Shown piece after piece: positions 56,293 through 64,000 of a stretch of DNA of 64,000 bases. The number at the start of each line of letters is the position of its first letter. Position 1 is the stretch's first letter. Source of the stretch: Frankia tisae (lineage in GTDB: Bacteria; Actinomycetota; Actinomycetes; Frankiales; Frankiaceae); the NCBI RefSeq assembly GCF_025403405.1, contig NZ_JANEZT010000001.1, positions 1-64,000 on the forward strand. The letters are read 5' to 3'. The notes under the pieces are model-generated. The model was not told the origin of the DNA, searched no databases, and saw only the letters and a program-made list of their open reading frames with translations. The position numbers were made by a program, and so were the translations under genes.

Positions 56293-57154
56293 GGGTCGCT
56301 CCTGGATCGGCGCCCTGCTGCGCGGCGCCGGTGCCGGCCGTGGCGCCGCCCGGGGCGGCGTCGCTGTCGGTGACGTCTTCGGTGCTCGGGCCGGGGCCGT
56401 GGGCCCGCGACTCGTCGGCGGGCTTGGCGTCGACGGGGATCCGCTTGGTCCGGCCGAACACCGACGACGGGGCGAGCGCGGCGGGCCGGCGGGTGTCCAG
56501 GGCGGGTTCGACAGCGCCGCGATCCGTGGGGACCGGCGCGCCGGCCGGGATCCGGAAGTGCTTGCGGTCGTTGACGGACAGGGTGCGGGTGTCGAGCTCA
56601 CCGGCGGGCAGCCCGGCGCGGGCGGTGGCGACGTCGATCGGCTTCGGGTACGGCGACGAGCCGGACTCGGTGTGCGGGGTCCTGCCGGTGACCGGGCCGG
56701 CGAGGATCTTCTCGTGCAGCTTGATGATGGCGTCCATCAGCATCTCCGGCCGCGGCGGGCAGCCGGGCAGGTACATGTCGACGGGGACGATGTGGTCGAC
56801 ACCCTGCACGATCGCGTAGTTGTTGAACATGCCGCCGCTGCTGGCGCAGACCCCCATCGACAACACCCACTTGGGCTCGGGCATCTGGTCGTAGATCTGC
56901 CGCAGCACGGGCGCCATCTTCTGGCTCACCCGGCCGGCGACGATCATCAGGTCGGCCTGGCGGGGGCTGGCCCGGAAGACCTCCATGCCGAACCGGGACA
57001 GGTCGTAGCGGCCGGCTCCGGTGGACATCATCTCGATCGCACAGCAGGCCAGCCCGAAGGTCGCCGGCCACAGCGACGACCGCCGGGACCAGTTGGCGAG
57101 CTTCTCGACGCTGGCGAGGAGCACGCCGCCGGGTAGCTTCTCCTCTAGTCCCAT
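56279..57154 (-). CDS. nuoB: NADH-quinone oxidoreductase subunit B
   Basis: Carries cluster N2, the direct donor to quinone. Cluster cysteines: adjacent pair in [10 protein letters not shown] (37-38), GVCASSGG and PGCPPRPE. The core is complete by residue 165; a 125-residue Pro/Ala/Gly-rich tail follows, so the protein is 291 rather than about 160-190 residues. It overlaps nuoA at its start and nuoC at its end. Confidence 0.95.
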
Positions 57155-57507
57155 TCCAGACCTCCACGACGCCACTCGTAGGCGTATGCGACGAAGATCG
57201 TCGCCATGAACAGTGCCATCGCACCGAGGCCGAAAACCGCGAGGCTGTCGAAGGCGACCGCCCACGGGAACAAGAAGATGATCTCGATGTCGAAGACGAT
57301 GAAAAGCATCGCGGTGTTGTAGTACTTCACCGGGAAGCGCTGCGGCCCGGCCGGGGCCGGAGAGGGTTCGATCCCGCACTCGTAGGCGTCGATCTTCGCA
57401 CGATTGAACCGGCGGGGGCCGATGACCGCGCCCGCCGCGACGGAACCGACCGCGAACAGGCTCGCGATCGCCAGCAGAACGAGGATCGGCACGTAGTTCG
57501 AGAGCAT
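57145..57507 (-). CDS. nuoA: NADH-quinone oxidoreductase subunit A
   Basis: Three-helix membrane subunit of 120 residues next to the quinone site. The conserved loop YECGIEPSP and the helix [21 protein letters not shown] (two motifs) are present. Strong ribosome site GGAGAGGAG. It is the first nuo gene, 410 bp after the MenJ-like gene. Confidence 0.96.
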
Positions 57508-57917
57508 GCCGAACTCCTCTCCTTCGAAAGAGTGTTACCGGATGTTATGAGGAAGGCTTTCCGGTGAACGGACCGCGAACGATCCGCGCTCGGTGTTCGT
57601 CACGTCTATCGCCACTGGTCACGGCGCCCCGAGGCGGGGCGCCCTCATCCGATCCTGGCCCGGGTCCCCCGGTCTGGTGGTACTTCGCTGCCTCGACTGC
57701 CCTTCCCGCCGGCTCCCCCCGAGAGCCGAACCGATGGCGGGTTGAGCCCACAGCCCTGTCCGCGCAGGAAGAAGGTGGCGGGCCGGGCATGCCACGACGG
57801 CGGGTCAAACTCCGCGCCGGCGCCGGCCCACCAGCGCCGGCGCCGCCATGCTCGATATACCGTAAATCCGTCGATCCGGTCCAGGCGGCACGCCGCCGGA
57901 TCGACCCGAATAACACG
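57508..57917. other. Region between the MenJ-like gene and nuoA
   Basis: No gene. A hairpin lies at 57623-57643 and a GC palindrome cluster (GCGCCGGCGC in direct and inverted form) near 57818-57850, just after the MenJ-like gene. A separate nuoA promoter is possible; AT-rich CATAACATCCGGTAACACT (minus strand, about 57525-57550) is the best place, without a clear -35. Confidence 0.45.
57623..57643 (-). terminator. Hairpin between the MenJ-like gene and nuoA
   Basis: Perfect 8-bp stem GGCGCCCC / GGGGCGCC with loop GAGGC. It could be a terminator, but readthrough into nuoA is possible. Confidence 0.4.
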
Positions 57918-59228
57918 TCAGGCCGCGGGAGCGAGCCGAGTCATTGCGTTGATCAACCGGTCCATCGCATCCCCTCCCCGGGGGTCGGTGAGATTTGCCA
58001 TGATCTTGAGAACGAAGCGCATGAGCATCGGCCGCGGCAGCCCGTACTTCGTCCCGAGCGCCATGATGGTCGGATTCCCGATGAGCTGGACAAAATAGCG
58101 GCCAAGAGTGTAATACCCGCCGTACTGGGCGCGGATTATCGCCGGGTAGTGCCCGAGGGCGCGTTCCCGCGCGGGCCCCTCGGCGCGGGCGAGGGCCTGC
58201 ACGGCGACCTCGGCAGCGTACCGGCCCGACTCCAAAGCGTAGGCAATGCCCTCGCCGTTGAACGGGTTGACCATGCCGCCGGCGTCGCCGACGAGCAGCA
58301 CGCCGTCGCGGTAGTGCGGGGTGCGGTTGAAGCCCATGGGCAGGGCGCTGCCGCGCACCGGACCGATCGCGTTGTCCTCGGTGAACCCCCACTCCGGCGG
58401 CAGCGCGCCGAGCCAGCGGCGCAACAGGTCGGTGTAGTTGGTGTGCTGGAAGGCGTCGGTGGTGTTCAGCAGGCCGAGACCGACGTTGCTGGTGCCGTCG
58501 CCGACACCGAAGATCCAGCCGTAGCCGGGAAGCAGGCGGCTCTCGCGCGGCCGGCCCTCCCACAGCTCGAGGTGGGACTCGAGATGGTCGTCGTTGGTGA
58601 GCGGGCTGCGGTAGTAGCGGCGGACCGCGACGCCGAGCGGGCGGTCCTCGCGGCGACGGATGCCGAGCGCCAACGCGATCCGGGCACTGTTACCATCAGC
58701 AGCGATAATCAGCGGCGCGCGGTAGGTCACCGGTTCCCGGTCGGGCCCGGTGCGCGCCAGGACGCCGACGACCCGGCCGGTGCGCTCGTCGATCAGCGGT
58801 CCGGTGACGGCCGTGCCCTCCTGCAGCCGGGCGCCGGCCTTCACCGCGTGCCGGGCGAGCAGGTCGTCGAAGTCCAGCCGGGGGCGGACAAGGCCGTAGT
58901 CGGGCCAGCTGGCCAGGTCCGGCCAGGGCAGCTCCACCCGCACGCCGCCGCCGACGATGCGCAGGCCCCTGTTGCGCGCCCAGCCGGCGGCGGGCGAGGT
59001 GTCGATACCCATCTCGACGAGGCTGCGCACGGCGCGCGGAGTCAGCCCGTCGCCGCAGACCTTCTCACGCGGGAAGGTCGTCTTCTCGATCAACAGGACG
59101 TCCAACCCGGTGCTGGCCAGGTGGTAGGCGGCGGACGAACCACCGGGGCCGGCGCCGACCACGATGACGTCAGCGTCGGTCGTCGACCCACCGCCCGCGC
59201 CGTCAGTCCTTGTCGTCGCCATGGCCAC
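57918..59228 (-). CDS. Geranylgeranyl reductase family FAD oxidoreductase (menaquinone reductase-like)
   Basis: The 436-residue flavoprotein has the dinucleotide motif VVGAGPGGSSAA (23-34), the family loop FPREKVCGDGLTPRAV and the second FAD motif VLLVGDAGGMVNPFNGEGI. In actinobacteria the family member at this locus (MenJ) saturates one isoprene unit of the menaquinone tail; location between menG and nuoA supports that. Other members reduce geranylgeranyl lipids. GTG at 59226-59228 has the better ribosome site (GGAG); ATG at 59222 is the alternative. Confidence 0.87.
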   Translation of the reverse strand: MAMATTRTDGAGGGSTTDADVIVVGAGPGGSSAAYHLASTGLDVLLIEKTTFPREKVCGDGLTPRAVRSLVEMGIDTSPAAGWARNRGLRIVGGGVRVELPWPDLASWPDYGLVRPRLDFDDLLARHAVKAGARLQEGTAVTGPLIDERTGRVVGVLARTGPDREPVTYRAPLIIAADGNSARIALALGIRRREDRPLGVAVRRYYRSPLTNDDHLESHLELWEGRPRESRLLPGYGWIFGVGDGTSNVGLGLLNTTDAFQHTNYTDLLRRWLGALPPEWGFTEDNAIGPVRGSALPMGFNRTPHYRDGVLLVGDAGGMVNPFNGEGIAYALESGRYAAEVAVQALARAEGPARERALGHYPAIIRAQYGGYYTLGRYFVQLIGNPTIMALGTKYGLPRPMLMRFVLKIMANLTDPRGGDAMDRLINAMTRLAPAA

Positions 59229-59295: not shown

Positions 59296-59317
59296 GCTCG
59301 TGAAATTCTTCACGAGC
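59296..59317. promoter_or_regulatory. Rex-like operator upstream of the MenJ-like gene and nuo operon
   Basis: GCTCGTGAA-ATTC-TTCACGAGC, a perfect 9-bp inverted repeat with a 4-base centre. The core GTGAA-N4-TTCAC agrees with the operator of the NADH/NAD+ sensor Rex (TGTGAA-N4-TTCACA in Streptomyces); only the outermost pair differs (C:G instead of T:A). It lies 11 bp downstream of a TACACT -10, where a repressor would block transcription. No rex gene is in the window. Confidence 0.6.
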
Positions 59318-59327
59318 GTCCTCGGCG

Positions 59328-59333
59328 AGTGTA
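59328..59333 (-). promoter_or_regulatory. Probable -10 of the MenJ-like gene
   Basis: TACACT on the minus strand, the same hexamer as the rpoB and rplJ -10 elements, with start site expected near 59321. The -35 region is poor, compatible with a regulated promoter. Confidence 0.45.
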
Positions 59334-59460
59334 GGCCCTACGCAGGCCAATCGCACCAACCAGGATGCTCTGAGGACCGGACGAGTCGACTTCGCGCACC
59401 CAATGACCACCGTGAGCGACCGTTTCCGCCCTCCGGCCCGCGCGGACCCGCCGTAGCGTT

Positions 59461-59489
59461 CTGACGCAACTTCTAGACGAGCGTATAAT
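59461..59489 (+). promoter_or_regulatory. Near-consensus sigma-70-type promoter
   Basis: -35 CTGACG (59461-59466), 17-base spacer, perfect -10 TATAAT (59484-59489). Start site near 59496. The next recognised gene on this strand begins 560 bp later, so it drives either a long leader or a separate small transcript. Confidence 0.6.
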
Positions 59490-60054: not shown

Positions 60055-60771
60055 ATGACCGAAGAGACCGTCGTCCTCCCCACCGCCGACGGGCCTGCCC
60101 CGGCGACGCTCGCCGAACCCGCCGGACCCGCGCGCGGCGGCGTCGTCATCCTGCACGAGGCGTTCGGTCTCACCGAACATGTGCAGGGACTGTGTAGCCG
60201 CTTCGCCCTGGCCGGCTGGCGGGCGATCGCGCCCGACCTGTTCCACCGCGTCGGCTCGCCGGTCTTCGCCTACGACGACATCGCCTCGGCGATCAAAGTA
60301 GTCGAGGACCTTGACGGCACGGACCTGCTGGACGACGTCGACGCCGCGCTGGCCGTCCTCGCCGAGGAGGGGACGGCGCTGGACCGCTGCGCCGTCGTCG
60401 GCTTCTGCCTGGGCGGGAGCATCGCCTTCCAGGCCGCGGTGGCCCGTCCGTTCGGCGCGGCGGTCACGTTCTACGGCGACGGGATCCGCACCCGGAGCTT
60501 CGGTGAGCCGAGCCCGTTGGAGATCGCCGGGCGACTGCAGGCGCCATGGCTCGGCCTGTACGGCGACCAGGACCCGAGGATCCCCGCCGAGGACGTCGAA
60601 GCGCTGCGGATCGCGACGGCCGCAGCCCCCGTGCCCACCGAGATCATCCGCTATCCCGAGGCCGGGCACGGCTTCCACAACGACGCCCGCCCCGCGTCCC
60701 ACCACCCGGCATCGGCCCGCGATGCCTGGTCACGCACCCTGACCTGGATCGAGTCGCACCTGCCCGGCTGA
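60055..60771 (+). CDS. Dienelactone hydrolase family protein
   Basis: Alpha/beta hydrolase of 238 residues with the family triad Cys118 (GFCLGGS), Asp173 (GDQDP) and His205 (EAGHGFH), plus Glu36 (LHEAFGL) which activates the cysteine. Classical members open dienelactone in chlorocatechol breakdown; many actinobacterial members have unknown substrates, and no aromatic pathway genes lie nearby. It faces menG with only 19 bp between the stops. Confidence 0.88.
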   Translation: MTEETVVLPTADGPAPATLAEPAGPARGGVVILHEAFGLTEHVQGLCSRFALAGWRAIAPDLFHRVGSPVFAYDDIASAIKVVEDLDGTDLLDDVDAALAVLAEEGTALDRCAVVGFCLGGSIAFQAAVARPFGAAVTFYGDGIRTRSFGEPSPLEIAGRLQAPWLGLYGDQDPRIPAEDVEALRIATAAAPVPTEIIRYPEAGHGFHNDARPASHHPASARDAWSRTLTWIESHLPG

Positions 60772-60790: not shown

Positions 60791-61579
60791 TCAGTCGGGG
60801 ACGTGGCCGCGGTGGAGGGCGACGACGCCGCCGGTGAGGTTACGCCAGGTGACGCGGGACCAGCCGGCCTCGCGCAGCAGGTCGGCGAGCACGGCCTGGG
60901 CGGGCCACGCCCGGATCGACTCGGCCAGGTAGACGTAGGAGTCCGGGCTGCTGCTGACCGTGCGCGCCACTTTCGGCAGCGCCCGCATCAGGTATTCGAG
61001 GTAGACGGTCCGCCAGGGCCCCCACACCGGCCGGGAGAACTCGCAGACGACGAGCGAGCCACCCGGCCGAGTGACGCGGCGTAGCTCACTGAGGCAGCGC
61101 ACGGTGTCGGCGACATTACGGAGCCCGAACGAGATCGTCGTGCGGTCGAAGACGGCGCCGGGGAAGGGCAGGTGCAGCCCGTCCCCGGCGGTCAGCACCA
61201 CCCGCCCCGCGCCCGAGGCCACCGCACCCGGGGCGGCGGCTGCCGGGGCACATGGGCCCGATGCCGGGGAGGCCGGGTTGGCGGGCAGGGGCTTCTCGGC
61301 GAGGCGACGCTGGCCGGCGCGCAGCATGCCGAGGGAGAAGTCGCAGGCGACGACGTCCGCACCGGCCTCGGCGAAGGCCCGCGAGGAGGTGGCCGTGCCG
61401 GCGGCGAGGTCGAGGACCCGCAGGCCGGGACGCAGATCGAGGGCGGCGGCGGTGGCGCGCCGCCACGTCCGGTCGAGGCCGCCGGAGAGCACGGCGTTCG
61501 TCAGGTCGTAGCGCCCGGCCACACCGTCGAACATCGCCGCGACCTCCTGCGGCCGCTTGTCCAGCCCCGCCCTGCTCAC
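60791..61579 (-). CDS. menG: Demethylmenaquinone methyltransferase
   Basis: Last methylation step of menaquinone synthesis, using SAM. GTG start, 262 residues. SAM motif VLDLAAGTA at 55-63 and the UbiE/MenG motif [11 protein letters not shown] at 148-158 are present. An Ala/Pro-rich insertion of about 30 residues (95-125) interrupts the fold before strand 4. Same strand as the deaminase-family gene and mqnC, forming a probable operon. Confidence 0.93.
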
Positions 61580-62857: not shown

Positions 62858-64000
62858 TCAGGTCGCCGAGACGAGCGGCAGGGCGGTGGAGGAGAAGTGC
62901 GAGGCGACGCGGTCGTCGGTCGGGTCCTGCGCCGGGTCGCGGTGGACGACGAGGTGCCGGTAGAGGGTGTCGCGCTGCGCGGGAATGCGGCCGGCGGTGC
63001 GGATCAGGGAGATGAGCTCGGAGCGGTTGGTGCGGTGGCGGGCACCGGCGGAGGAGACGACGTTCTCCTCCAGCATCACCGAACCGAGGTCGTCGGCGCC
63101 CATGTGCAGGGTGAGCTGGCCGACCTCCTTGCCGGTCGTCAGCCACGAGCCCTGCAGATGGGCGATGTTGTCGAAGAACAGCCGGGCGACGGCGACGAGG
63201 CGCAGGTACTCCAGCGTCGTGGCCTGGGTTCGCCCGCCCAGGTGGTTGTTCTCCGGCTGGTACGTCCACGGGATGAACGAGCGGAAGCCACCGGTGCGGT
63301 CCTGCACATCCCGGATCATCCGCAGGTGCTCGATGCGCTCGGCGTTCGTCTCACCGGTGCCCATCATGAACGTGGCGGTCGATTCCAGGCCGAGGGTGTG
63401 CGCGGTCTCCATCACCGACAGCCAGACGTGGCCGGGCTCCTTGAGCGGGGCGATGGCGTGCCGGGGGCGTTCGGTGAGGATCTCCGCGCCGGCGCCGGCG
63501 AAGCTGTCCAGGCCCGCATCGCGCAGCCGGGTGATGACCTCGGGGAAGGCCAGGCCGGACGTGCGGGCGATGTGCACGACCTCGCTGGCGCCCAGCGAAT
63601 GCAGGGCGAGCTGCGGGTAGGCCGCCTTGATCGCGCCGAACACCTGCTCGTACCACTCGATGCCGAAGTCGGGGTTGTGGCCACCCTGCAGCATGATCTG
63701 GGTGGCACCGAGCTCCACGGCCTCGCCGCACTTGGCGACGATGTCGTCGACATCGCGGACCCAGCCCTCGGCGTGCTTCGGGGCCCGGTAGAACGCGCAG
63801 AACCGGCAGGCCGTCACGCAGATGTTCGTGTAGTTGATGTTACGGTCGATGATGTAGGTGGCGATGCCGTCGGGATACCGGCGGCGGCGCACCGTGTCCG
63901 CTGCCTTGCCGAGTGCGTGCAGGGGGGCCCGGGTATAGAGGAGCAGCGCCTCCTCCGGCGAGATGCGGCCGCCCTCGGCGGCCCGGTCCAGGATCGACCG
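62858..64000 (-). CDS. mqnC: Cyclic dehypoxanthine futalosine synthase (5' end cut by window edge)
   Basis: Radical SAM enzyme that closes the spiro ring of cyclic dehypoxanthinyl futalosine in menaquinone synthesis. 380 residues are visible, entering the window as RSILDRAAEGGRISPEEALL; the true start lies beyond 64000. The cluster motif CVTACRFCAFYR is at visible residues 61-72. Further family features are QGGHNPDFGIEWYE and TWQPEN-type sequence (PWTYQPENNHLGG). An internal GTG at 63890-63892 is not the start, because the conserved N-terminal part continues upstream. 69 bp separate it from the deaminase-family gene. Confidence 0.92.
   Translation of the reverse strand, partial: RSILDRAAEGGRISPEEALLLYTRAPLHALGKAADTVRRRRYPDGIATYIIDRNINYTNICVTACRFCAFYRAPKHAEGWVRDVDDIVAKCGEAVELGATQIMLQGGHNPDFGIEWYEQVFGAIKAAYPQLALHSLGASEVVHIARTSGLAFPEVITRLRDAGLDSFAGAGAEILTERPRHAIAPLKEPGHVWLSVMETAHTLGLESTATFMMGTGETNAERIEHLRMIRDVQDRTGGFRSFIPWTYQPENNHLGGRTQATTLEYLRLVAVARLFFDNIAHLQGSWLTTGKEVGQLTLHMGADDLGSVMLEENVVSSAGARHRTNRSELISLIRTAGRIPAQRDTLYRHLVVHRDPAQDPTDDRVASHFSSTALPLVSAT

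Follow-up and report, generated by a model that had tools for sequence, protein, structure and literature searches.

The window analysed here, a stretch of 64,000 nt from Frankia tisae, carries on its minus strand a gene for a flavoprotein of the geranylgeranyl reductase family followed by nuoA and the other genes of the nuo operon, and ahead of the reductase gene a perfect palindrome and promoter elements (Table 1). The reductase start at 59228 lies 67 nt beyond the palindrome. Its product scores 255 bits against TIGR02032, the geranylgeranyl reductase superfamily model (cut-off 158.8), but only 235 bits against the MenJ equivalog NF045655, for which the cut-off is 700. Thus the superfamily assignment implied by "menaquinone reductase", the name given in the initial annotation, is sustained and the identification as MenJ is not. 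Because the protein falls so far below the MenJ cut-off, this name derives from the neighborhood, in which menG (60791-61579) and mqnC (62858-63892) make menaquinone the likely substrate and the label a plausible one.

Table 1. Features of the reductase-nuoA region in the window
Feature	Position	Strand	Basis or remark
Rex operator (ROP), GCTCGTGAA-GAAT-TTCACGAGC, perfect 9-bp arms	59296..59317	-	Predicted from sequence and from conservation in the family and in many further families
-10 element TACACT	59328..59333	-	TACACT/TAGACT conserved in relatives
Conserved block CCTGGTTGGTGC	59353..59364	-	Listing of 32 promoters; about 20-31 nt upstream of -10
Geranylgeranyl-reductase-family flavoprotein, putative quinone side-chain reductase, GTG start	57918..59228	-	TIGR02032
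Reductase-nuoA gap	57508..57917	-	No Rex site, no U-tailed terminator
nuoA, first gene of complex I operon	57145..57507	-	410-nt gap after reductase

The palindrome and its promoter

Read from the window letters, the order of elements on the minus strand is TACACT-CGCCGAGGAC-GCTCGTGAA-GAAT-TTCACGAGC. The palindrome has a 4-nt spacer and lies 10 nt downstream of the -10 element (agtgta at 59328-59333 being TACACT on the minus strand), exactly as had been described initially: a perfect inverted repeat with 9-bp arms and a GTGAA-N4-TTCAC core, shortly after a TACACT -10. Taken simply as an inverted repeat it is unremarkable: the GC-rich window contains 27 inverted repeats with perfect 9-bp arms and loops of 3-8 nt, and mononucleotide shuffling of the 826-nt intergenic region yielded a repeat with 9-bp arms in 5 of 200 trials. 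Its significance must therefore come from the motif and from conservation. The complete 59296-59317 sequence occurs once in the window, even when up to 3 mismatches are allowed, and it resembles the ROP palindrome, TTGTGAA-N4-TTCACAA: the GTGAA/TTCAC core is perfect, and the outer letters are TC/GA in place of TT/AA. The rex site of the genus shares these outer letters, and the sites listed for Streptomyces avermitilis, whose Rex motif is TTGTGAANNNNTTCACAA, include TCGTGAA/TTCACGA variants (PMC5355995).

A TACACT or TAGACT box is found ahead of 60 of 70 relatives' sites, in most cases at a distance of 12-19 nt from the GTGAA half-site, so that both the location just after the promoter and the spacing to the -10 box are conserved. 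If transcription starts 7 nt after the -10 element, the operator would occupy about +5 to +26, which agrees with the short repeat-to-promoter distance expected of a functional site. The reductase promoter offers only a poor -35 hexamer 17 nt from TACACT, and for this reason the CCTGGTTGGTGC block, which is strongly conserved in most family members, is a possible activator site. A separate, good sigma-70-like promoter (CTGACG-N17-TATAAT, 59461-59489 on the plus strand) faces a dienelactone-hydrolase-family gene at 60055, about 560 nt off; its TATAAT is kept in most of the genus.

Rex and its recognizable sites in Frankia

A single PF06971 gene (E 6e-20) is present in the genome (7.07 Mb in 882 contigs), and hemA follows it closely on that contig. 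The encoded protein has Put_DNA-bind_N and CoA_binding domains, reaches 375 bits against the NCBIfam Rex equivalog (cut-off 226) and aligns over its length, except for extensions at both ends, with solved Rex structures (E 4e-44); a genuine rex is therefore present, as the proposal of a Rex site demands. The motifs VRKDL and GTRGVGY are conserved, and their VRK and TRG residues match Arg48, Lys49, Arg60, and Gly61 of Thermotoga maritima Rex, which read the bases in the Rex-DNA structure (PMC8836258). The rex-hemA promoter has its own site, ACTTCGTGAA-N4-TTCACGAAGT, which ends 2-3 nt before its own TACACT; since it fills the stretch before this box, Rex would cover the -35 region there.

Perfect matches to TYGTGAANNNNTTCACRA in the genome number exactly two, at the reductase and rex promoters, and matches to the core only number 13 in all, most of them without extended arms. 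In each of the 13 genus genomes YGTGAANNNNTTCACR occurs 2-4 times, as against 0 for the reversed control. The site is invariant at the reductase promoter in all 13 and is present at the rex promoter in 11; the two genomes without rex also have no hemA, indicating a likely assembly gap. A third 16-letter match in the F. tisae genome (C152) was set aside as lying inside a histidine-kinase coding frame, as was a one-mismatch match (C877) inside a glycosyltransferase frame. Another perfect 16-letter match (L201) is also in a coding frame, C152 and L201 being the remaining matches with clearly readable surroundings.

The expectation that other respiratory promoters would carry the same site is borne out for rex-hemA but not for cydA, the classic target of Rex, upstream of which no site with at least 9 of 10 core letters was found in four genus genomes. 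The regulon is consequently smaller than had been assumed: as far as it can be recognized by sequence, the Rex regulon of the genus comprises rex-hemA and reductase-nuo and nothing further. A different perfect palindrome, ACCTTCTAC-N5-GTAGAAGGT, is present upstream of cydA (around 1400-1430 of L138, and also in L137 and L139); it looks like the operator of another regulator, which may take the place of Rex at that gene.

Conservation among actinomycetes and alternative readings

Among the 87 regions examined ahead of related reductase genes, 66 carry a perfect GTGAANNNNTTCAC, whereas none carries any of 29 palindromes obtained by permuting the same letters. The window has many inverted repeats of similar size, as a palindrome arising by chance and having no function would predict, but none of the 29 permutations recurs likewise in the 87 regions, and by this comparison chance, the least credible reading of all, is already refuted. 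When genera whose reductase is orthologous (at least 50% identity) were counted by hand, the site was found before the reductase in 41 of 47 that have rex and in 0 of 3 that do not (Fisher p 0.004), a co-occurrence to be read with the small size of the rex-less sample and with the fact that drafts can hide genes. The three rex-less genera do have hemA, and the absence of rex is thus not due to a missing contig at that locus. Six rex-bearing genera have no site before the reductase, and two of these have one before nuoA.

The core letters would also fit a regulator of the CRP/FNR family, as GTGA-N6-TCAC is the core of the CRP motif, TGTGA-N6-TCACA, in which the inner bases are free. In the present sites they are not free: of 48 distinct sites, 47 retain the inner A and 47 the inner T, although it should be recognized that these sites were picked by at least 9 of 10 core letters, a choice that favors retention of the inner A/T. 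This retention, the occurrence of the same motif at the rex promoter, and the lack of the site in the three rex-less genera make a CRP site very unlikely. The palindrome might instead act as RNA, since it would form part of the transcribed 5' leader and folds into a hairpin of 9 bp (z -1.8) that could serve in attenuation, stability, or termination. However, 19 among 45 distinct sites do not pair at -8/+8 (17 of them have C-A) while the surrounding letters are fixed, indicating that sequence and not pairing has been kept; the palindrome is not followed by a U-tract, and the copy at the rex promoter is upstream of its -10 and so is untranscribed from it. A hairpin function is accordingly even less probable than a CRP site. 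The palindrome at 59296-59317 is best read, with a probability of roughly 0.9, as the operator through which Rex, the NADH/NAD+-sensing repressor, would act on the reductase promoter. The Rex-site proposal of the initial annotation is thus strengthened by the rex gene, the matching rex-hemA site, and the fixed position relative to the promoter.

Relation to nuoA-N and to known Rex systems

Nearly all genomes have nuoA as the next gene after the reductase on the same strand, at a distance of 33-449 nt; within the family the gap is 118-449 nt, and gaps as small as 33 nt occur in other families. The Streptomyces-like genomes and one further genus have the reductase apart from nuoA, with no site at the reductase promoter; here the operator precedes nuoA in two of three Streptomyces-like genomes, the available stretch of the third ending short of nuoA, and two tandem Rex sites precede nuoA in the further genus (L181:1779-1830). 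The operator therefore appears to track the head of the nuo unit, which makes co-control of nuoA-N likely. No U-tailed terminator was found in the reductase-nuoA gap of the window, nor was a Rex site, and so read-through from the reductase into nuoA is plausible. A candidate terminator stem beyond the reductase stop codon, which looked like an inverted repeat, was dropped because it is not the fold favored there (z -0.4).

It is conceivable, though we consider it the weaker view, that Rex controls the reductase only and that nuoA-N has a Rex-independent promoter of its own within the 410 nt; this concerns the scope of control, and the site would be a Rex operator under either view. In favor are the length of the gap, its variability within the genus (118-425 nt), and the -10-like sequences that precede nuoA in some relatives. 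Against this stand the same-strand synteny, in which as little as 33 nt may separate the genes, the lack of a detected terminator, the operator before nuoA where the two genes are apart, and an additional Rex-like site within the reductase-nuoA interval in three members of one family (L155, L158, and L159). The cautious suggestion made initially that nuoA-N might also be controlled thus gains comparative support and stands, for F. tisae itself, as a prediction.

The reading of the palindrome as a Rex operator suggests a simple scheme. At low NADH, Rex dimers in the apo or NAD+-bound form would sit on the reductase promoter from about +5 to +26 and keep RNA polymerase from initiating or escaping; a rise in NADH would release Rex and allow transcription of the reductase and probably of nuoA-N downstream, so that a larger electron supply would bring both more complex I and a more saturated quinone for it. 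We lean, by a small margin of confidence, toward a generalization in which, in most actinomycetes, a quinone-tail reductase leads a Rex-controlled complex I operon, one NADH-sensing switch sets both electron entry and acceptor chemistry, and the operator has stayed with the operon head in evolution. Partial saturation of the menaquinone tail in actinomycetes has so far been poorly explained, and a redox switch common to complex I and a putative tail-reducing enzyme would provide a testable reason, predicting that tail saturation rises with NADH and complex I. The minimal two-operon Rex regulon predicted for the lineage would be convenient for genetics. A search for literature on Rex with the reductase or with Frankia, a scope outside which the comparative survey of Rex published in 2012 (J Bacteriol) lies, returned nothing relevant. 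Control of nuo by Rex is established in Streptomyces; within this scope, the operator predicted ahead of the reductase gene counts as a new target of a well-known regulator.

For the enzyme, the closest known system is MenJ of Mycobacterium tuberculosis, which belongs to the same FAD reductase superfamily and reduces a quinone tail, but the window protein differs in scoring far below the MenJ model cut-off. For the regulator, the nuoA1, atpI, cydA1, and rex promoters of S. avermitilis have been footprinted with Rex (PMC5355995). The rex-hemA operator, which the family of F. tisae shares, has the same placement in both organisms, within the -35/-10 stretch (PMC5355995), where it would occlude polymerase binding, whereas the reductase operator is instead downstream of the -10. 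A counterpart to the latter is the S. avermitilis cydA1B1CD operator, which is located downstream of the start in a road-block geometry like that proposed at the reductase (PMC5355995); its target is different, the cydA genes of the Frankia genus having no such site. The S. avermitilis nuoA1-N1 operator shares the regulator, the motif class (TTGTGACCTGCTTCACAT), and the complex I operon (PMC5355995), and the identical sequence precedes nuoA in two Streptomyces-like genomes; the site in that system is at nuoA, whereas in Frankia it stands before the upstream reductase gene.
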